This document shows positions 1 through 8,222 of a DNA stretch of 64,000 nt, piece by piece. Origin of the DNA: Candidatus Lucifugimonas marina (lineage in GTDB: Bacteria; Chloroflexota; Dehalococcoidia; Lucifugimonadales; Lucifugimonadaceae). Within the stretch, counting starts at the first letter, position 1, and every line of letters starts with the position of its first letter. The translations under genes were made by a program, and so were the position numbers. Where the stretch lies: positions 2,046,001-2,110,000 of the forward strand of contig CP046147.1 in assembly GCA_029593915.1 (NCBI GenBank), written 5' to 3'. The notes beneath the pieces are model-generated. The model ran no database searches. It was not told where the DNA came from and saw nothing but the letters and a program-made list of their open reading frames with translations.

Positions 1-41
1 TTTACGGAATATTTATGACTCATACCTACAGTTTTACATAT

Positions 42-114
42 TTGTGGACTTTACACAACACAATTCCATGTGTAGGATATAAACATCAATTTCATGTATA
101 TGTGGTTTTTACAC
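42..114. repeat. TGTG...CACA-type repeats upstream of the DUF378 gene
   Basis: Positions 42-58 form a small inverted repeat (TTGTG, 7-nt spacer, CACAA). A related TGTGG-N4-TACAC-like unit recurs at 101-114, about 55 bp before the first gene. The surrounding sequence is AT-rich and holds no open frame. It could be promoter or operator DNA for the DUF378 gene, but no regulator is identified and short AT-rich repeats arise by chance. Confidence 0.2.
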
Positions 115-169
115 GAAGAGACCAAGAGGCTTCAACCACAAACAGTCTATGAAACTAGCGGAGAAGAAA

Positions 170-373
170 ATGGAAAATCTATACATCGCAGGAATCGTCT
201 TAGCAGTTGTCGGCGCTCTTAGCTGGGGACTAGTCGGCTTATTCAAGTTCGACTTGGTCGCAGCAGTGACCGGATCAAAATTTGGCGAGGTAAACGCTGC
301 ATCAAGAATCGTCTATGTACTCGTATTGATCGCAGGCGGGCTAGCCGCTGCTGCGATCCCAGAAATCGCTTAA
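170..373 (+). CDS. DUF378 family small membrane protein
   Basis: A 67-residue protein of unknown function matching the DUF378 (YuzA-like) family: two hydrophobic segments around the motif LSWGLVGLFKFDLVAA, then RIVYVLVLIAGG. It should sit in the cytoplasmic membrane with two helices. I chose the ATG at 170 because GGAG at 160-163 is ideally spaced from it; an ATG at 149 would add seven residues but has no ribosome binding site. It is followed after 67 bp by a small zinc-ribbon gene. Family assignment is good; function is unknown. Confidence 0.8.
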   Translation: MENLYIAGIVLAVVGALSWGLVGLFKFDLVAAVTGSKFGEVNAASRIVYVLVLIAGGLAAAAIPEIA

Positions 374-440
374 AGAATCCGACATGGCCGGGAAGATATT
401 CCTCCTGTCTCCTCGGCCTTAGTTGGATGGAAGGCCACTA

Positions 441-602
441 ATGCTTCATTTCAAATCTTGCCCCAAATGTATGAACGGTTCGTTATATGAACATCAAGGA
501 CTGGATGGTCCTGAAAAGAAATGTGTGAACTGTGCTTACACCGTTTACATGAGTCACTCAATCGATCAACACGATGCCACTCTCGCAAAGCTTTCTGCTT
601 AG
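441..602 (+). CDS. small zinc-ribbon protein (53 aa)
   Basis: A 53-residue protein with two CxxC knuckles: FKSCPKCM near residues 4-11 and KCVNC near residue 33. It begins MLHFKSCPKCMNGSLYEHQG. A purine-rich GGAAGG lies just upstream of the ATG. The FKSC-x2-CM ... C-x2-C arrangement is shared with the 49-residue protein at 21942, so the two look like paralogues of one small zinc-ribbon family. Such ribbons usually bind one zinc and contact nucleic acid or protein partners, but no function can be assigned here. The paralogy is the main reason for believing it is a gene. Confidence 0.65.
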   Translation: MLHFKSCPKCMNGSLYEHQGLDGPEKKCVNCAYTVYMSHSIDQHDATLAKLSA

Positions 603-643
603 CTATTGGCAACTAGAAAATAATCTCAAAACCGAAAATAATC

Positions 644-1645
644 ATGAAAAAGTACGTAGCTCTCTTATTGATCGGAGCCATCACAATGGTTCTGGTCGCT
701 TGTTACTCAGATGAGGAAAACCCGCCTACTGTCGCACCGACTCCACAACCTGAGCCAACACAAGCTCCCGCATCAAACGATGTGGTTGCATCAACTATCG
801 TTGACATTGCTGTTGAAGATGGACGCTTCGGTACGTTGGTAACTGCTCTTCAAGCAGCAGGTCTAGTCGATACTCTTGCGGGAGAAGGTCCTTTCACGGT
901 CTTCGCCCCTACGGATGATGCATTCGCTGCTCTACCTGATGGTGTAGTTGCTGGACTCCTTGAGGACGTTCCTGCACTTACAGACGTTCTGACCTACCAC
1001 GTTGTTTCAGGATCAGTTCTCGCTGAGCAGGTAGTTGGACTAACTTCAGCTACAACACTTCAGGGCGAAGATGTGACAGTTGCTGTAAACGATGGATCAG
1101 TCATGATTGACGGTGCAAACGTCATCATCACGGACATCATCGGATCAAATGGTGTGATCCACGTGATCGACGCTGTGATCCTGCCCTCCGCAATCGCAGC
1201 TTCGTTGGCAACGCCAGAAGATGCCATGGATTCTATGGTGGTATCTAAGACGATCGTTGACATTGCTGTTGAAGATGGACGGTTCGGCACGTTGGTAACA
1301 GCTCTTCAGGCTGCAGGACTTGTAGATACTCTCGCAGGAGACGGTCCGTTCACGGTCTTCGCTCCGACAGATGACGCATTCGCCGCTCTTCCTGATGGTG
1401 TAGTGGCCGGTCTCCTTGAGGACATTCCTGCACTTACAGATGTACTGACCTATCACGTTGTTGCAGGATCAGTACTCGCAGAGCAGGTAGTTGGCCTAAC
1501 TTCCGCTACGACACTCCAGGGTGAAGATGTTACCTTTGCAGTGAACGACGGCTCGGTGATGATCGATGGTGCAAACGTAATCATCACGGACATCATCGGT
1601 TCAAACGGTGTTATTCACGTGATCGACGCAGTGATTCTGCCTTAA
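644..1645 (+). CDS. lipoprotein with two fasciclin (FAS1) domains
   Basis: A 333-residue exported protein. The N-terminus is a lipoprotein signal with lipobox LVAC (Cys20), followed by a Pro/Thr/Glu-rich linker (about residues 24-45) and two FAS1 domains (about 48-182 and 198-333). Each carries the family hallmarks [14 protein letters not shown] and TYHVV...[15 protein letters not shown]. The domains are nearly identical in protein sequence while their DNA differs at many third positions, so the duplication is not recent. FAS1 proteins mediate adhesion or extracellular matrix contact; this one would be anchored to the outer face of the membrane. No clear Shine-Dalgarno is seen. A hairpin at 1650-1665 (ACTCGC/GCGAGT) follows the stop codon. 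Confidence 0.9.
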
Positions 1646-1676
1646 CTCTACTCGCATGAGCGAGTCAGATTGCGCT

Positions 1677-1742
1677 GATGGCGCAGACCCCCTGTCGATT
1701 CCTAAAGCTTAGTTTAGGGAACCTAGCGGAGGTCTGCGCATC
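1677..1742 (+). promoter_or_regulatory. nested hairpin leader in front of folE
   Basis: A long stem (GCGCAGACC at 1681-1689 with GGTCTGCGC at 1731-1739, extended by GAT/ATC across one bulged G) encloses a second hairpin (CCTAAA at 1701-1706 with TTTAGG at 1713-1718). The structure ends 18 nt before the folE start and just before its ribosome binding site. It is not a simple terminator because no T-run follows. It could be a structured 5' leader or cis-regulatory RNA for folE, or an operator palindrome. Folate-sensing riboswitches precede folE in other bacteria, but I do not recognise their consensus here. Confidence 0.45.
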
Positions 1743-1759
1743 GTACCAGGAGAAAACAG

Positions 1760-2341
1760 TTGCTACAGAGTAAAACTAGAGTTGAGTCGATCGAGCACGC
1801 TATTACTGGTGTATTGGAAGCGGTTGGCGAGGACGCAAGTAGAGAAGGACTTGTAGGTACCCCAAATAGAGTGGCGCGTATGTACGGCGAGCTGCTTAGT
1901 GGGTACAACGTTGATCCGACCGAATTGCTTAACGGTGCGTTATTCGAAGTCGAGCACGAGCAAATGGTGGTGGTCACGAACATAGAGTTCCAGAGTCTGT
2001 GTGAACATCACATGCTCCCGTTCACCGGGATGGCCAATGTTGCCTACATCCCAGACAAACAAGTAGTTGGCCTGTCGAAGATTCCGAGGATCGTAGACAT
2101 GTACGCCAGGCGTCTTCAAATCCAGGAACGAATGACTAAACAGATCGCGGAGACCATCTCAACACTCGTCGAGCCGCTTGGAGTTGGCGTAACGCTGACT
2201 GGCTCTCACATGTGCTCCACGATCCGGGGGGTGCGTAAGCAAAATTCCTTAATGACCACAAGCTGTATGACTGGATCGCTCAAATCCAACAGCTTGCTTC
2301 GTTCTGAATTCCTAACGCAGATTCAAATCGATAAACAGTGA
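1760..2341 (+). CDS. folE: GTP cyclohydrolase I
   Basis: A 193-residue GTP cyclohydrolase I, which opens GTP to 7,8-dihydroneopterin triphosphate, the first step to folate and other pterins. The zinc ligands are present: Cys81 and His84 in CEHHMLPFTG, and Cys152 in the SHMCSTIRGV stretch. The C-terminal MTTSCMTGSL...LRSEFL pattern is also typical, and the length matches short bacterial FolE. The start is TTG at 1760 with AGGAG at 1748-1752. It heads the block of SRPBCC, photolyase and SDR genes. folE beside phr and SDR genes is known from light-inducible gene sets in other bacteria, so here it may supply pterins for light responses as well as ordinary folate. Confidence 0.93.
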   Translation: MLQSKTRVESIEHAITGVLEAVGEDASREGLVGTPNRVARMYGELLSGYNVDPTELLNGALFEVEHEQMVVVTNIEFQSLCEHHMLPFTGMANVAYIPDKQVVGLSKIPRIVDMYARRLQIQERMTKQIAETISTLVEPLGVGVTLTGSHMCSTIRGVRKQNSLMTTSCMTGSLKSNSLLRSEFLTQIQIDKQ

Positions 2342-2437
2342 CCGAGCGAGATAAAAATCAATAGAAGCGAGGGTTATGCCATATCAAAGCGTCAAAAAGA
2401 CATACAGATAGTTAGAAAAGACGATGGTGCTTATTTA

Positions 2438-2869
2438 TTGAAGTCAGAAACTCTAGTTAGTTCATCGTTAGATGAAAGCTTTGAATTCTTTGCTAGCGCA
2501 GAGAACCTAAATCTGATCACACCACCGTGGCTACGTTTCAATGTGGTCTCAAAGCCCCCTATAAAAATGTTTACAGGGGCACAGATTCAGTATCGTTTGC
2601 GTATTCACCGAATACCCGTATCTTGGCGATCCGAAATAGCTATCTGGGAACCACCACTTCGATTCGTGGACCGACAGATTTCAGGACCATTTCGCGATTG
2701 GTATCACTTACACGAGCTTTCGCGAAACCCTTCAGGTGGAACGTTGATCACTGATCAGGTCGAATACAAAGTCCCGTTAGGAAAAATTGCTCACTCTATG
2801 TTCGTGGGTAGAGACCTTTTGAGAATATTTCGATTTCGAAACCAACAGGTAGAAAAAATACTCTCCTGA
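2438..2869 (+). CDS. SRPBCC family (cyclase/dehydrase-like) protein
   Basis: A 143-residue START/SRPBCC-fold protein that would bind a hydrophobic ligand in a helix-grip pocket. Family marks are ESFEFFASAENLNLITPPWL near the N-terminus, GAQIQYRLRIHRIPVSWR, and PPLRFVDRQISGPFRDW. Such proteins often sit beside photolyase and SDR genes. The start is uncertain: TTG 2438 is the only standard start in this frame after the in-frame folE stop (2339-2341), has no good ribosome binding site, and plausible coding sequence (..DIQIVRKDDGAYL) continues upstream. An ATG at 2376 lies in another frame (11 codons). A small 5' frameshift or a non-standard start is possible. Confidence 0.8.
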   Translation: MKSETLVSSSLDESFEFFASAENLNLITPPWLRFNVVSKPPIKMFTGAQIQYRLRIHRIPVSWRSEIAIWEPPLRFVDRQISGPFRDWYHLHELSRNPSGGTLITDQVEYKVPLGKIAHSMFVGRDLLRIFRFRNQQVEKILS

Positions 2870-3086
2870 AAAATCTTCGTTATGCATAGGTTCGGATCAT
2901 TGTTCGGAACGAGTAACGCTAGCGATCAACGGCATATTCGATCTATAAGTCGAATCTTCAAAGGAGTCTTTGGAAAGCAAAATAACAACAATCGATTGCG
3001 GTCGCCGCCCCCCTGATAAGTCAGAAACCGACGAGCCGTAATAACTAATCGTTAATGATTTCATTCTAGTCAATCAGGTGTAAATA

Positions 3087-3263
3087 ATGCCCAAATTCAA
3101 AACATTCACATGGCTGTATTTCATCGCAGCCTTCATGTCATTTTTGCTGTCCGTAGGACTCTGGTTCTTCGGTGAAGATTCACAACTCGAAGCCATATTT
3201 GTCGGACTATGGGTGCCTTCGATCCTAAGCCTGGGTAATAGCCTCGAAAGGAATTCGGAGTGA
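3087..3263 (+). CDS. small membrane protein (58 aa) coupled to photolyase
   Basis: A 58-residue protein starting MPKFKTFTWLYFIAAFMS, with one hydrophobic helix (about residues 9-28), a short acidic loop (GEDSQLE) and a second hydrophobic stretch (AIFVGLWVPSILSLG). It should span the membrane twice. Its last four bases (GTGA, 3260-3263) contain the GTG start of the next small gene, which in turn overlaps the photolyase start by ATGA. This chain of overlaps is the best evidence that all three are translated together. No family name recognised; function unknown. Confidence 0.65.
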   Translation: MPKFKTFTWLYFIAAFMSFLLSVGLWFFGEDSQLEAIFVGLWVPSILSLGNSLERNSE

Positions 3264-3370
3264 GTACCGCAACAATCATCTCGACTATGTTTTTTGTCGT
3301 GCTGGTCCTTATGATCGGTGCCGCAGTTTCTTATGTTCAACTCGAACGTTCAAACAAACCAAGGAAATGA
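3260..3370 (+). CDS. 36-aa single-helix membrane protein coupled to photolyase
   Basis: A 36-residue protein: a short N-terminus, one hydrophobic helix (about residues 6-24, MFFVVLVLMIGAAVSYV) and a basic tail ending NKPRK. It starts at GTG 3260 inside the stop of the preceding gene, preceded by GGAATTCGGAG, and stops at TGA 3368-3370, overlapping the photolyase ATG at 3367. The topology (single helix, positive C-terminus) resembles small regulatory or assembly membrane peptides, but no function is known. The double stop/start overlap supports it as a real gene despite its size. Confidence 0.55.
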   Translation: MSTATIISTMFFVVLVLMIGAAVSYVQLERSNKPRK

Positions 3371-4746
3371 GCCGATACCCAATATCAATCTGGTGGGTTA
3401 GATCCGATTTAAGATTGGAAGATAATCCAGCTCTCTCGGAAGCGACAATTGAGTCTGAGGTGGTGATTCCGGTATTTGTCTTCGATTTGAAATCAGAGAT
3501 GCCGAAATCAAAATCAAGATCCAACTTCCTCAACGGCGGACTTAATGACTTGGATTCACGGTTGAGAGAAATAGGATCCAGATTGTTAATAAAACAGGGG
3601 GATACAGCACAAGAATTAGCAAAGATTATCGACGGGGAAAGCACGATACCTGTGTTCGCAAATGCGGGTTACTCGAGGCACAGCAAATTCGTTGAATCAC
3701 AGGTCGCCAGACACACACAGTTAAGACTTTTCAGTGGTCAGGTAACTATAGACCCGTCCGGAGTCTCAAAAGAAAATGGTGAGCCATTCAAGGTCTACTC
3801 GGCTTTCAGGCGCAAATGGGAACAGGTCTACCAGAAAAAGATATTTAGGACTGACTATCAGTCGCTCGGAATCAAGCCTGAAATTATGAGCTCATGTGAT
3901 TTGCATTCCGGTAAAAACTCTTTGGCACGAAGTTCCACAAGAGCAAACGCAGTTCGTACTCTCAGAAAGTTCACAGGACTTAAAGGTGGAATAAATCGTT
4001 ACAGCGAACTAAGTGATCGAGTCGACCAGAACACGACCTCAGGGATGTCCGAATTTATTTCGCTCGGTCTTATTGGCCCAAATGAACTGTTCGAAGTTGC
4101 TGATTATCTGCGATATTCATCTGACGATAATAGATATTTGGGTTCTGTTAATAGCTGGCGTAATCAATTGATCTGGAGGGAGTTTTTTAAGCATTCGCTG
4201 GATCATTTTCCAGACTCAGAAAACCAGAGCCTGAATCCCAATCTCGAATCTATCGACTGGATCAATCAAAAGGTAGATATTGACGCATGGAATGATGGAG
4301 AGACTGGATACCCCATAGTAGATGCGGCAATGCGACAACTTTCCGAGGATGGCTGGATTCACAATCGACTTAGAATGATCGTAGCCTCATTCCTAGTAAA
4401 GGATTTATTGGTTGACTGGCGAATAGGTGCAAACTGGTTTCACGACAAACTAGTTGATTACGATTCGGCACTCAACTCAGGTAACTGGCAATGGGTTGCG
4501 GGCACCGGCTTCGACGCGTCCCCGTTTTTCAGGGTGTTCAATCCAGTTTTACAGGGCAGGAAATTCGACCCAAAAGGTAATTATGTTCGACGGTGGATTC
4601 CCGAAATAAAGAAACTACCTTCAACAGTCATCCACTCACCTTGGGAACTTCCCCGCCCTCCTAAAAACTACCCCTCCCCGATCATCGACCACAGCTGGGC
4701 GAGGAAGCGAGTACTTTCCGTCTACGCAGATGCAAAATCCTCTTAG
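3367..4746 (+). CDS. phrB: deoxyribodipyrimidine (CPD) photolyase
   Basis: A 459-residue class I photolyase that uses FADH- and blue light to split cyclobutane pyrimidine dimers. The N-terminal photolyase domain opens WWVRSDLRLEDNPAL. The C-terminal FAD-binding domain has WRNQLIWREFFKH, DGETGYPIVDAAMRQL, GWIHNRLRM, DWRIGANWF and NWQWVAGTGFDASPFFR. The electron-transfer Trp triad of E. coli photolyase aligns with W298, W351 and W374. Length is normal. Translation is coupled by ATGA overlap to two upstream membrane peptides. A deazaflavin-type enzyme elsewhere in the window (37960) makes an 8-HDF antenna possible, alongside a folate antenna supplied through folE; the sequence does not decide between them. 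Confidence 0.95.
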   Translation: MSRYPISIWWVRSDLRLEDNPALSEATIESEVVIPVFVFDLKSEMPKSKSRSNFLNGGLNDLDSRLREIGSRLLIKQGDTAQELAKIIDGESTIPVFANAGYSRHSKFVESQVARHTQLRLFSGQVTIDPSGVSKENGEPFKVYSAFRRKWEQVYQKKIFRTDYQSLGIKPEIMSSCDLHSGKNSLARSSTRANAVRTLRKFTGLKGGINRYSELSDRVDQNTTSGMSEFISLGLIGPNELFEVADYLRYSSDDNRYLGSVNSWRNQLIWREFFKHSLDHFPDSENQSLNPNLESIDWINQKVDIDAWNDGETGYPIVDAAMRQLSEDGWIHNRLRMIVASFLVKDLLVDWRIGANWFHDKLVDYDSALNSGNWQWVAGTGFDASPFFRVFNPVLQGRKFDPKGNYVRRWIPEIKKLPSTVIHSPWELPRPPKNYPSPIIDHSWARKRVLSVYADAKSS

Positions 4747-4792
4747 ATTCGCATCTAGCGATAAATCACTTCATTTCGATATAAAAGAGCTG

Positions 4793-6235
4793 ATGAACCA
4801 AATGGTAAAAAACGAATCAACGTTGAAAAACAAGATCATATTGTTGACCGGCGCAACTGGCTACGTAGGCGGCCTGCTACTACCTGATTTATAGCGAAAA
4901 TACCGGCACATCAAATGTATGACCCGGCATCCAGAATCGCTAGATGAAAATCTTGTGGGCAACGCATCTGCTGTCTATGGCGACACATCGAACTTGGAAT
5001 CACTTATCAAAGCGATGGAAGGCGTAGACGACGCTTACTACCTGGTACATTCGATGGCCGATTCAGATGATTTTGAAGAGCTTGAAGCCCAGAGTGCTAG
5101 GAATTTTGGAGAAGCTGCGGCTAAGGCCCAAATCAAGCGAATAATTTTTCTTGGGGCTTTATCACAATCCGAAAACGAAGAATCTTCGAAACACATGTCG
5201 AGCCGTCACAAGACTGGTGAAATTCTTAGAAGTTCTGGTGTGCCCACAATCGAGTTCAGGGCGTCGGTGATTATCGGCGCTGGAAGTATGCCGTTTGAGG
5301 CGGTTCGAGCTCTTGTTGAAAGACTCCCTGTGATGGTCACTCCGAAGTGGGTCAGAGGGGAATTGCAGCCCATCGCAGCTAGGGATTTGAAAGATTTTCT
5401 AGTCAGAGCACTCGAACTTGAGCCTGTCAGCCGAGTGATAGAGATCGGTGGGAGTGAAGTAGTCAGGTATCAAGATTTGATGAAAACTTACTCAGATGTC
5501 AGAGGCCTGAAACGATTCATGATTCCTGTTCCAGTGATAACTCCGAGATTGTCCAGTCATTGGCTAAGACTGGTGACGCCCGCGCACTACAAGATAGGAC
5601 GCAGGATAGTCGAGAGCGCTGTCCACAGGTCAGTCGTAGCTTCGGAAACTGCTTCGAAACTATTCGATATCAAGCCATTAGGTACCAGGGCAGCGACAGA
5701 AGCGGCCATCCGAGACGAAGAATATGCATTTAGCTTTTTGGACCAGGAAGGCAAAGCAAAGGACTACAAAGCTCAGGTAGGTACGAGGTTCGTGGAAAAA
5801 CGCACACGCCGTATTAGAAAGGAACCTATTACCGCGTTTAAAATCGCAAGCCGAGTCGGCGGCGATTCCGGATGGTTTTGGCAATCTTGGTTGTGGACAC
5901 TGCGAGGTTGGATCGATCGAGTAGTAGGAGGAGTAGGAACAAGAAAGGGACGATCTAAACACTTGAAAGTTGGTGAAACCCTCGATTTTTGGAGAGTAGA
6001 AAGAATCTCAGACAACCGTTTGACGTTATCTGCGGATATGCGTCTTCCAGGAGATGCCGTCTTCGATGTGCATGTTTATGAGACTCCCTCGAAGGAGTTC
6101 ATTCTGGAACACACGGTAGCTTTCAATCCTAAAGGCTGGGGTGGATACATTTATTGGTTCGCCCTCTATCCTCTCCATGCTTTGGTGTTCAGGAAAATGT
6201 TGGACAGAATGGCCACAGAGATCGACCGGGGATAG
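4793..6235 (+). pseudogene. SDR (NAD(P)-binding, DUF2867) gene interrupted by an in-frame amber codon
   Basis: From ATG 4793 the frame encodes a Rossmann start with ILLTGATGYVGG, then meets TAG at 4892-4894 (codon 34) where a Leu-rich 'LxxLLERGH' segment is expected. The same frame continues RKYRHIKCMTRHPE and stays open to 6235. The rest fits YbjT-like SDR proteins: VDDAYYLVHSM, RIIFLGALSQ, FRASVIIGAGS, then a C-terminal DUF2867-type domain (FWRVERI...MRLPGDAVFDVHV). Starting at ATG 4919 would give 438 residues but lose the nucleotide-binding glycine loop. It is therefore either a recent nonsense mutant, a sequencing error or an amber-readthrough gene. Downstream coding looks intact, so decay would be recent. 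It belongs to the photolyase neighbourhood. Confidence 0.8.
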
Positions 6236-6478
6236 GGAAATAGACTCCGTAGCTCCATTTTCTGACAGTCTGCTCCTCAATCATAAAATTTTACTAATCA
6301 TGGTGACATCGTAACGACAAAAAATATCGATCCAAAGCCTGGATTAGTCAAACATCCTAGGTTTCGGGGAGTTGTACATCCAATCAGGATTCCAACCTCG
6401 CCATCAGCGTTAGCCAACACCAACCGTCGCCAGTCTTACTCTTGCAACTTCTAATATTTCACGTAAAGAACTTTTCAA

Positions 6479-7252
6479 ATGAACACAACTGACGCTATTA
6501 CGCGAGGCACGTCCAACCGACTTAGGGTCTACAACGCAGCGGCTGCTCTACTCCATCTGCTGCAGGCGGTCACCGTACTGTCACTGACCAATGACTTTTC
6601 AATCCCGGTAACTGCAATGTTCCTTGAAGGACCACCCGGTACAGATCCAGGGACTTTAACAACGTTGTTTGATTTCCGAATCGGGTGGGGAGTTGCGGCG
6701 TTCCTACTGATGTCTGCAGCAGCCCATTTGATTCTCATCATGCCAAGGATCTTCACGTGGTATGTCGGGCAACTTGAGACAAGGCGCAACTACGCCCGAT
6801 GGATCGAATACTCGTTCAGTTCATCGTTAATGGTCGTAATAATTGCGATGCTGCCAGGGATCACAGAAGTTTCTGCGTTGGTTGCTTTGTTCGGCGTCAA
6901 TGCCTCGATGATCCTATTCGGACTTGTCATGGAAAAGTACGAGCAGCCGGGAAGACCGTCTTGGTTGTCATACTGGTTCGGGGTGCTAACCGGTTCAATC
7001 CCTTGGATAGTGATTGCTATCTACCTATGGTCTCCAGGCAGCTCCGCGCAGCCCCCAGCTTTCGTCTACGGAATATTCTTCTCTTTATTTCTATTCTTCA
7101 ATAGCTTCGCATTGAACATGGTCTTGCAGTACAAACGAACGTGGAGATGGCGCAACTACATATTTGGAGAAAATGCGTATATTTTCCTCAGCCTGACGGC
7201 CAAATCACTGCTAGCTTGGCAGGTTTTCGCTGGGACTCTTGTACCAAGTTAA
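6479..7252 (+). CDS. heliorhodopsin
   Basis: A 257-residue seven-helix retinal protein of the heliorhodopsin family. The retinal lysine is K242 in FLSLTAKSLLAWQVF (helix 7), with the Ser four residues before it (S238). The Schiff-base counterion is E110 in YARWIEYSFSSSLM (helix 3). The two buried histidines of the family are at H26 (ALLHLLQA) and H83 (AAAHLILI). NASMILFGLVME and FFNSFALNMVLQY are further hallmarks. Heliorhodopsins have inverted topology and do not pump protons; roles in signalling, transport and stimulation of photolyase have been proposed. It follows the photolyase/SDR block after 243 bp, so it probably has its own promoter. No retinal or carotenoid synthesis gene lies in the window. 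Confidence 0.93.
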   Translation: MNTTDAITRGTSNRLRVYNAAAALLHLLQAVTVLSLTNDFSIPVTAMFLEGPPGTDPGTLTTLFDFRIGWGVAAFLLMSAAAHLILIMPRIFTWYVGQLETRRNYARWIEYSFSSSLMVVIIAMLPGITEVSALVALFGVNASMILFGLVMEKYEQPGRPSWLSYWFGVLTGSIPWIVIAIYLWSPGSSAQPPAFVYGIFFSLFLFFNSFALNMVLQYKRTWRWRNYIFGENAYIFLSLTAKSLLAWQVFAGTLVPS

Positions 7253-7339
7253 GATCAACAGTAGACATAGACTGCTGGTGCTGCCTACAAGATAGGTTCT
7301 GTCAGATCTCAGTGTCGTAACTTCAATATGTTTTGATAT

Positions 7340-7774
7340 CTAGCCTCGAGATCCTGTCTTTCGAGTCTTTAGGTCTGAGATTCTTATTCCAAGAGTGGCG
7401 ATTGCCAATTTCTCGCGATGATTGAGCCTGTTTACCTTCAGACGATTCTTTCGGATCAATGTACTGATCTTATGCCGAATATCTTCTGCGGCATCGTCTC
7501 CTACTTCTGTCAGGGCCTTGAGCACTAGGATGTAGTTAGCTGGAGGTAATCGTCTACGCCGATATCGCAGATCCCTCCGCCCCAACGCTCTTGATACGGC
7601 GGCAACCATCAACAGAAGTAGTAGAGCGAATAGGTACCAGAGAGGATTCGCTCGAATCTCAGCTATCCAATATTCTGCGATTACAGCGAGCGCGGCTAAA
7701 ACGAAAGTGGCGGTCAACGAAGAGTATCCTGTTGAGCTGGTTGATTCTGTAATAAAGCACGGTTGCAGACACAT
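7340..7774 (-). CDS. hypothetical membrane protein with basic C-terminus
   Basis: Unrecognised protein of up to 144 residues. Two hydrophobic helices (TATFVLAALAVIAEYW and PLWYLFALLLLLMVAAV) are followed by an Arg-rich stretch (RRDLRYRRRRL) and a soluble tail of about 60 residues. The longest start (ATG 7774) overlaps the preceding minus-strand gene by 116 bp; a TTG at 7717 would shorten the overlap to 59 bp and place the start just before the first helix. Both genes look genuine in composition. The large overlap could also mean a frameshift that split one membrane protein in two. Part of an accessory region. Confidence 0.5.
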   Translation of the reverse strand: MCLQPCFITESTSSTGYSSLTATFVLAALAVIAEYWIAEIRANPLWYLFALLLLLMVAAVSRALGRRDLRYRRRRLPPANYILVLKALTEVGDDAAEDIRHKISTLIRKNRLKVNRLNHREKLAIATLGIRISDLKTRKTGSRG

Positions 7775-8222
7775 ACACCCACAACAAAGTCAAAATTGAG
7801 ACACCGGCGAAAACGGCTCCTATCAATGTCGTTGGCTCCAGCTCTCTCACCCAACTCGACACAGCCGTTCCGAGATACTCGTCTACAGTCCGCCAGAGCA
7901 GTGCAGTAACAACGAGTCCGATCGTGATGATGACAGCTCGTTTCAATCGCCTGCCAGCTTTGTCCTCATTCAGATGCCCTTTATGGTGAGCTCTCATTGC
8001 ATGACGACCAGCGGTGCCACGTTTCACGGTCCCGAACCCACATCGGACGCACCGGTATCCTCCAGGACCGAACAACGACTTTCTGACTCGGATCCCCAGG
8101 CGCCTGCAAAGAGCGATCAAATCTTGATCGATAAACCACGTTCCTTTTGCAAGACGTTGGCTGTCGTTCGGTCGCTCTACTTTTTTCCGTTTTCTCTTTC
8201 TCTGTTTTCGATTACCTGACAT
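7659..8222 (-). CDS. C2H2-type zinc-finger protein with membrane helices
   Basis: Unrecognised 187-residue protein. A very basic N-terminus (RKQRKRKRKK) is followed by a segment ALCRRLGIRVRK and a finger-like element YRCVRCGFGTVKRGTAGRHA then MRAHH (C-x2-C ... H-x4-H, about residues 57-80). Two hydrophobic helices follow (VIITIGLVVTALLW and LIGAVFAGVSILTLLWVYV), then an Arg-rich tail. A C2H2-like finger joined to membrane helices is unusual in bacteria. The gene overlaps the next minus-strand frame. It sits beside the small basic protein at 8620, which has a homologue in the other accessory locus at 19312. Confidence 0.55.
   Translation of the reverse strand: MSGNRKQRKRKRKKVERPNDSQRLAKGTWFIDQDLIALCRRLGIRVRKSLFGPGGYRCVRCGFGTVKRGTAGRHAMRAHHKGHLNEDKAGRRLKRAVIITIGLVVTALLWRTVDEYLGTAVSSWVRELEPTTLIGAVFAGVSILTLLWVYVSATVLYYRINQLNRILFVDRHFRFSRARCNRRILDS

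Follow-up and report, generated by a model that had tools for sequence, protein, structure and literature searches.

A heliorhodopsin in a duplicated light-protection gene block beside a predicted B12-binding light-switch regulator in 'Candidatus Lucifugimonas marina'

The left end of the window, by which the whole analysed stretch of 64,000 nucleotides of the 'Ca. Lucifugimonas marina' genome is meant, carries a plus-strand gene block that ends in a heliorhodopsin (HeR) gene, with the first codons of a divergently oriented regulator at the very edge. By Pfam and open reading frames, the fasciclin gene, the DUF378 gene and the CxxC ORF all lie 5' of folE, and two small membrane-type ORFs sit between the SRPBCC gene and the photolyase gene. 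The features are as follows.

1..23, minus strand: first codons of a B12-binding/HTH_3 regulator (ORF and Pfam); start codon at 23-21, remainder left of the window
48..81, plus strand: promoter-like stretch TTTACA-N17-TAGGAT, pointing away from the regulator; conserved
170..373, plus strand: DUF378 small membrane protein (Pfam PF04070, 2.5e-14); missing in copy 2
441..602, plus strand: small CxxC...CxxC ORF; missing in copy 2, homologues adjoin the regulator in genomes G009 and G012
644..1645, plus strand: two-domain fasciclin lipoprotein-like protein (PF02469, two stretches); 99.4% identity to copy 2
1681..1739, plus strand: folE-leader stem-loop; present too in copy 2 and G009
1760..2341, plus strand: folE, GTP cyclohydrolase I, TTG start (PF01227, 1.1e-71)
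2342..2869, plus strand: SRPBCC/Polyketide_cyc-like protein, open frame; homologues match PF03364
3087..3263, plus strand: small membrane-type ORF, 58 aa; a homologue lies near the G027 regulator as well
3260..3370, plus strand: small membrane-type ORF, 36 aa, GTG start; overlaps the photolyase start codon
3367..4746, plus strand: DNA photolyase (PF03441, 5.6e-82; PF00875, 9.9e-31)
4802..6235, plus strand: SDR/NmrA-like protein, DUF2867 at its C-terminal end; in-frame stop TAG at 4892-4894, copy 2 counterpart intact
6479..7252, plus strand: heliorhodopsin (PF18761, 8.7e-96; K242, E110, H26, H83)

The folE, photolyase and heliorhodopsin genes named in the preliminary description are all present, their products matching the corresponding Pfam profiles, and the photolyase tryptophans W298, W351 and W374 occupy the positions given there. 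Two further genes of that description stand with a reservation each. The SRPBCC protein of the window matches no Pfam family at E<=0.001, but its homologues match Polyketide_cyc (the L116 protein at 7e-10, the L062 protein at 4e-4 and the genome's own paralogue in L067 at 6e-4), so that the label stands by homology. The SDR/DUF2867 domains are found in the part at 4919-6235 (DUF2867 6.8e-26, NAD_binding_10 1.4e-8), but an in-frame TAG splits the Rossmann start (4802-4891) from the remainder, whereas the frame of copy 2 is open.

The HeR, of 257 amino acids, begins 243 bp after the SDR stop and is matched by PF18761 over the full length of the profile (positions 1-242 of 242); alignment to the 48C12 heliorhodopsin, spanning residues 14-257, bears out the proposed retinal lysine K242, the counterion E110 and the family histidines H26 and H83, both of which are kept in 19 of 20 aligned SAR202 HeRs. 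The profile, the lysine, the glutamate counterion and the two histidines place the predicted protein in the HeR family. W166 takes the place of W163 of 48C12 and is replaced by S in copy 2. The absence of a retinal-synthesis gene, reported before for the window, extends to the whole genome as far as profile searches for Blh (PF15461) and the RPE65-type oxygenase (PF03055) go, both being negative; PF15461 exceeded the cut-off in one of 250 genomes of the order (G082), a match which indicates that the profile can pick up sequences of this order, and never in 14 control genomes. Of the blh/brp and crt genes proposed for a search, Blh is negative by PF15461, and a carotenoid-type gene cluster is present in the genome. 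In the available text of PMC8612252, the HeRs with a zinc ribbon (Znf-HeR) of monoderm bacteria lie beside photolyase and carotenoid genes, and the Lucifugimonas HeR likewise lies beside light-protection genes, although it is devoid of the N-terminal zinc ribbon extension.

A second copy of the block lies 0.64 Mb away in the same genome and forms a mosaic of identities with the first, near 100% in the fasciclin and SRPBCC-photolyase parts and about 80% in folE, the C-terminal part of the SDR and the HeR. The dN/dS ratios between copies (0.057 for the regulator, 0.045 for folE and 0.071 for the HeR) indicate, at the level of sequence, purifying selection on these three genes, and each copy of the block has its own adjoining, divergently oriented B12-binding regulator.

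The regulator belonging to the window's copy is a protein of 303 amino acids encoded on the minus strand at genome positions 2045112-2046023. The statement that no LitR-type regulator lies in the window is literally correct, but a LitR-like regulator does adjoin it, overlooked because the gene begins at 23-21 and leaves over the left edge. In both copies Pfam recognizes B12-binding_2, B12-binding and HTH_3, the last a Cro/C1-type domain at the C-terminal end (residues 238-292), and a Pfam match to a MerR-type HTH, which in LitR/CarH is N-terminal, was not obtained. The photoreceptor signature GxxW/EH/GxxH/GxxxP, taken from the accessible part of PMC11796333, is complete in both own regulators and in 39 of 50 sequences, after exclusion of 4 of 52 candidate relatives as partial. 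The best PDB profile matches are the B12 photoreceptors 8j2x, 8j2w, 8jbs and 8j2y, with CarH (5c8a) lower, and the structure model of the regulator of G012 (68% identical, pLDDT 89.7) matches first the B12 domains of photocobilin and CtMerR. By profile and model, the B12 domain is thus closest, among solved structures, to these (8j2w, 8j2x, 8j2y, 8jbs); photocobilins, however, have a bilin domain, for which Pfam gives no counterpart in the Lucifugimonas regulator, whose output is the Cro/C1 HTH. Light-responsive domains with an HTH at either end are described in the SignatureFinder paper, and the domain order as such is therefore not new. The regulator is, by prediction, a probable vitamin-B12 light switch.

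Between regulator and block, the pattern TTTAC(A/G)-N17-TAGNAT occurs in seven of nine upstream regions compared, those of G002 and G016 having no such stretch. Three genome sites match at up to 3 mismatches, against 0 for the reversed control, the perfect match of the own regions being by construction since the pattern was drawn from them. A palindromic operator for the regulator was sought by eye, and no inverted repeat is kept across the upstream regions, only the promoter-like stretch; a separate promoter for the HeR was also discarded, the 243-bp SDR-HeR gap being unconserved between the copies or with G001. The folE-leader stem-loop gave z values of -3.4, -4.1 and -4.4 (window, copy 2 and G009) and the G001 stretch one of 0.6; 8 of 33 pairs are changed on both sides yet kept, and 12 are broken or gapped in one sequence. 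As a known riboswitch the leader was rejected, since it matches no Rfam family at E<=1. Elsewhere, the sole Rfam match in 1-8000 is a sub-threshold Yersinia sRNA at 7594-7684.

In the 250 genomes of the order, with phylogeny controlled at genus level only, regulator and photolyase occur together in 33 genomes against 11.3 expected, and of the 18 genera with photolyase, 17 also have the regulator (p=5e-10). Around 42 Dehalococcoidia-type regulator loci, the neighbours include SDR (9), FAD amine oxidase-like (8), CMAS (8), SDR/DUF2867 (8), photolyase (7), SRPBCC (7), pyrimidine-dimer glycosylase (4) and folE (3) genes, together with the non-light glycerol-3-phosphate acyltransferase (10), ABC ATPase-like (7) and solute-binding protein (7) genes, counts in which related loci share neighbourhoods by descent; the clusters were named from one representative each by Pfam, or by query homology. 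Outside SAR202 this association was not recovered: this regulator family also occurs at six deltaproteobacterial loci, where its neighbour is a gene family common to them, of which the one tested member is DnaJ-like, with no link to light in the loci examined, and nine non-SAR202 loci (L117, L119, L120, L121, L124, L125, L127, L136, L140) gave no match to any block gene. In the available text of PMC9758184, the P. mendocina LitR region holds phrB, SDR, FAD oxidoreductase, ufaM and folE, and the LitR/CarH regulons (class I LitR and T. thermophilus CarH; Pseudomonas class II LitR) share with the present system a B12-binding domain with light-responsive residues and, divergent or nearby, genes for photolyase, folE, SDR, FAD oxidoreductase and a cyclopropane-type methyltransferase. 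The suggested resemblance of the block to a LitR-type light-inducible gene set has thus gained in substance, with a signature-bearing B12 regulator divergent at both copies and tracking photolyase across the order; the difference lies in the HTH, MerR-type and N-terminal in LitR/CarH, Cro/C1-type and C-terminal in Lucifugimonas.

Alternative readings of the regulator and its neighbourhood have to be weighed. That it senses the corrinoid level instead of light, its neighbours answering cobalamin supply or oxidative stress, appears unlikely, although the cobalamin-binding domain, the CobT/CobU-type cobalamin-assembly genes near 3 of the 42 loci, which make a corrinoid sensor fit too, the replacement by W of the G of GxxxP in the regulators of those lineages (L129, L138, L157) and the failure to find a PduO-type adenosyltransferase in the genome are all consistent with it; against these, 47 of 50 regulator sequences, both own copies among them, retain the AdoCbl-capping W, E and H together with the ligand H, the tie between regulator and photolyase is strong, and a pyrimidine-dimer glycosylase lies near four of the loci. 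Chance clustering of surface-ocean adaptation genes, free of any shared regulation, seems quite improbable: ecology would tend to bring photolyase and HeR into SAR202 surface genomes, and phylogeny was controlled at genus level only, but regulator and photolyase are linked (one contig, within 10 kb) in 10 of the 33 genomes with both, for which random placement in 2.2 Mb gives a binomial P near 3e-13, relatedness being ignored, and the promoter-like stretch is conserved between regulator and block.

As regards the HeR, the preliminary description had regarded it as a possible light sensor or helper of the photolyase, a role that proves weak on order-wide co-occurrence and linkage. The two genes occur together in 7 genomes where 3.8 would be expected (p=0.06) and in 5 of 16 genera where the expectation is 3.0 (p=0.14), and 16 of the 23 HeR genomes of the order have no PF03441 photolyase. 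The comparison of gene order in relatives recovered the pair within 10 kb in two of the seven genomes with both, namely the own genome, where the HeR is one gene after the photolyase in both copies, and G066, from another family of the order, where the photolyase follows the HeR after 28 bp, and not in the other five; this exceeds random placement (P 0.0017), though the genomes are few. The nearest solved relatives of the photolyase are 4u63 and E. coli 1dnp, which we take to be class III and class I enzymes, respectively. The only published HeR-photolyase interaction, that of Trichococcus flocculiformis in the available text of PMC9769723, favours a direct partnership and concerns a pair lying close on one strand as in Lucifugimonas, but the partner there is a class II photolyase, whereas in Lucifugimonas one gene separates the two and the pair is seldom kept in relatives. 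Moreover, one homogenised photolyase is set against two HeRs that stay 17% different, and a sensor or direct helper of the Trichococcus kind is distinctly unlikely here. A tentative possibility is that the SDR/DUF2867 protein is the working partner of the HeR, which might, for instance, modulate a membrane-located NAD(P)-dependent reductase when light falls on it, its position in the block following from this pairing. SDR/DUF2867 is the commonest tested HeR neighbour: of 19 genomes whose contig stretch holds a nearly full-length HeR, 9 have it nearby, seven of them within 250 bp (G000, G021, G027, G090, G131, G133, G152) with the two genes codirectional or divergent, and SDR is among ten frequent HeR neighbour groups according to the accessible part of the survey PMC11109279; the other 10 of 19 show none in the stretch seen, several stretches being short, and the SDR frame of the window itself is broken. 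HeR and regulator are linked in 3 of 9 genomes with both, and they occur together no more often than chance would give (p=0.15 for genomes, 0.18 for genera).

The analysis establishes the make-up of the block and its presence in two copies, the domains and signature of the regulator, the association of the latter with photolyase, and the shared promoter-like stretch. The block itself is best read, with somewhat better than even confidence, as a light-protection regulon of a B12 photoreceptor in which the HeR is an accessory member. In the dark, the cobalamin-bound regulator would keep the divergent promoter shut; light would break the Co-C bond and the regulator would release the promoter, whereupon the fasciclin, folE, SRPBCC, photolyase and SDR proteins would be produced, with folE supplying pterin/folate, perhaps for the photolyase antenna. 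The HeR would be an accessory membrane member, probably associated more closely with the SDR/DUF2867 protein than with the photolyase, and its retinal would have to come from outside, barring another route. A wider and more speculative proposal is that the master light switch of SAR202 may be a B12 photoreceptor with a Cro/C1 domain replacing the MerR-type LitR/CarH, and that the HeR may be an output of this switch, leading from a cytosolic B12 sensor to a membrane retinal sensor working with SDR/DUF2867; two paralogous switches, spectrally different HeRs and a gene-converted shared photolyase could then amount to a two-colour response of a light-inhibited bacterium.

The proximity of HeR and photolyase in Lucifugimonas is already in print, the 'Ca. 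Lucifugimonas marina' JH545 paper (PMC10444878, available text) reporting two HeRs, each one gene downstream of a photolyase, 83% identical and differing at the W163 position, the same as here; that text makes no mention of the regulator, the duplication of the whole block with its mosaic of identities, or the stop in the SDR frame. Among the open-access journal papers searched, none mentions heliorhodopsin together with CarH or LitR, and none SAR202 together with a photoreceptor and B12. The isolate represents in culture a clade that is abundant in the ocean, and its light sensitivity is called unexplained by its authors (PMC10444878, available text); the regulator is now a named candidate for it. 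The question about the HeR shifts from the photolyase towards SDR/DUF2867, and towards a regulated and not a regulating role, and the list of optogenetic parts could grow by a B12 light domain whose output is a C-terminal Cro/C1 HTH.

The regulator encoded divergently beside the block of fasciclin, folE, SRPBCC, photolyase, SDR/DUF2867 and heliorhodopsin (HeR) genes has B12-binding_2 and B12-binding domains, then a C-terminal HTH_3 domain (Pfam).

Start at window 23, mostly left of the window, minus strand: regulator gene, pointing away from the block.
Window 1681-1739: folE leader of both block copies and of G009 (another genome of the order), with a stable stem-loop in which several base pairs show changes in both partners.
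L067 4740-11449 (genome about 2.931-2.937 Mb): carotenoid-type cluster with a squalene/phytoene synthase-family gene and two crtI-family genes.
L064 8433-12579 (genome about 2.023-2.028 Mb): third regulator locus, a relic with a regulator of about 47 codons.

PMC11796333 gives GxxW, EH, GxxH and GxxxP as the hallmarks of light-responsive B12 domains; all four motifs occur in both own regulators and in 39 of the 50 sequences in the alignment (the two own copies and those of 48 loci, the 4 partial ones of 52 being omitted), and the W, E, H and H are kept in 47 of the 50. In the regulators of L129, L138 and L157 the glycine of GxxxP is replaced by W, and CobT/CobU-type cobalamin genes lie nearby. 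A PDB profile search ranks B12 photoreceptors first. Foldseek with the structure predicted for the regulator of G012, which shares 68% identity with copy 1 (model mean pLDDT 89.7), places photocobilin and CtMerR B12 domains first, CarH close behind, and corrinoid methyltransferase proteins from rank 10 on. The presence of this B12-photoreceptor-type regulator, divergent from the block, strengthens the proposal of a light-induced LitR-type set made in the preliminary description, whose named genes and residues were all recovered by profile matches and alignments; the SRPBCC label rests on homologues. The folE-leader stem-loop matched no Rfam family.

In a named-contig scan, 52 regulator loci had SRPBCC (16), DUF378 (11), SDR (6) and fasciclin (6) genes nearby, and more rarely photolyase (3), folE (2) and HeR (1). 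Clustering of 610 ORFs around 42 SAR202/Dehalococcoidia loci, one representative per cluster being named, added epimerase/DUF1731 (12), classical SDR (9), FAD amine oxidase-like (8), CMAS (8), MMPL (6), pyrimidine-dimer glycosylase (4) and AhpC-like (4) genes; taken together, the FAD oxidoreductase, cyclopropane-type methyltransferase, SDR and photolyase genes are reminiscent of the LitR region of P. mendocina described in PMC9758184. Against a light role count glycerol-3-phosphate acyltransferase (10), ABC ATPase-like (7), solute-binding (7) and CobT/CobU-type (3) neighbours at the same 42 loci, and the lack of light genes at deltaproteobacterial regulator loci. Six of the latter (L117, L120, L121, L124, L125, L136) adjoin a conserved divergent gene, the tested member of which has a DnaJ domain.

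Among 250 genomes of the order, HeR occurs in 23, a PF03441 photolyase over cut-off in 41 and the regulator (E<=1e-30) in 69. Regulator and photolyase co-occur in 33 genomes versus 11.3 expected, lying within 10 kb in 10 of the 33, and the regulator is found in 17 of 18 photolyase genera versus 5.6 expected (p=4.8e-10), genus-level counts lessening shared descent without removing it. HeR and photolyase co-occur in 7 genomes versus 3.8 expected (p=0.06; genera 5 versus 3.0, p=0.14) and are linked in 2 of the 7; HeR and regulator co-occur in 9 versus 6.3 (p=0.15; genera p=0.18), linked in 3, namely the own genome, G001 and G066. The guess that HeR serves the photolyase is not strengthened. Gene order around HeR, compared in 19 genomes (fragments in 4 of the 23 omitted; short contigs make the counts lower bounds), places SDR/DUF2867 nearby in at least 9, within 250 bp in at least 7, the regulator in at least 3, and photolyase and folE in at least 2 each. 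In L073 (G066, another family), regulator, HeR, photolyase and SDR/DUF2867 share one contig in a different order, photolyase starting 28 bp after HeR, and the L016 HeR (G048) carries Leu instead of each of the two conserved histidines (residues 26 and 83 in the window copy).

Of the retinal sources sought in the genome, neither Blh nor an RPE65-type enzyme was found; the crtI-family genes are present in the carotenoid-type cluster, which also has hydrolase-like and glycosyltransferase-like genes and, just upstream of the synthase-family gene, a gene whose product is paralogous to the SRPBCC protein of the block. On present evidence, HeR would need scavenged retinal.

A second block, at about 2.689-2.696 Mb, has its own regulator, 84% identical to that of copy 1. 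Identity between the copies is near 100% at about 750-1500 and 2400-5250 and about 80% elsewhere; dS is 0.019 for fasciclin and 0.003 for photolyase versus 1.25-1.70 for HeR, folE, the SDR C-part and the regulator, with dN/dS of 0.045-0.071 in the diverged genes. The simplest account of these sequences would be an old duplication, then recent gene conversion of two tracts, selection keeping both copies. The SDR/DUF2867 frame, open in copy 2, is interrupted in the window by an in-frame TAG at 4892-4894, in a tract otherwise near-identical between the copies; as this tract would be converted, the stop may be either a recent pseudogene or a sequencing error. The two HeRs (82.9% identical; W in the window copy and S in the other at the 48C12 W163 position) are placed as sister sequences inside the genus, the support being modest (0.71). 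The relic locus adjoins IS3-type transposase genes and retains the promoter-like stretch plus DUF378 and CxxC remains, an MMPL transporter gene lying downstream.

The window covers 2046001-2110000 of a single contig of 3,094,136 bp. PMC10444878 reports for 'Ca. Lucifugimonas marina' genomes of 3083-3094 kb, two closed PacBio genomes, inhibition of growth by light, and the proximity of HeR and photolyase, which is already in print; the own HeRs sit after photolyases, and their position, identity and W/S difference fit what that paper describes. What can be said most firmly is that light-protection blocks across SAR202 are marked by a regulator of the B12-photoreceptor type that has a Cro/C1 HTH, and that two such blocks in this genome include HeR.
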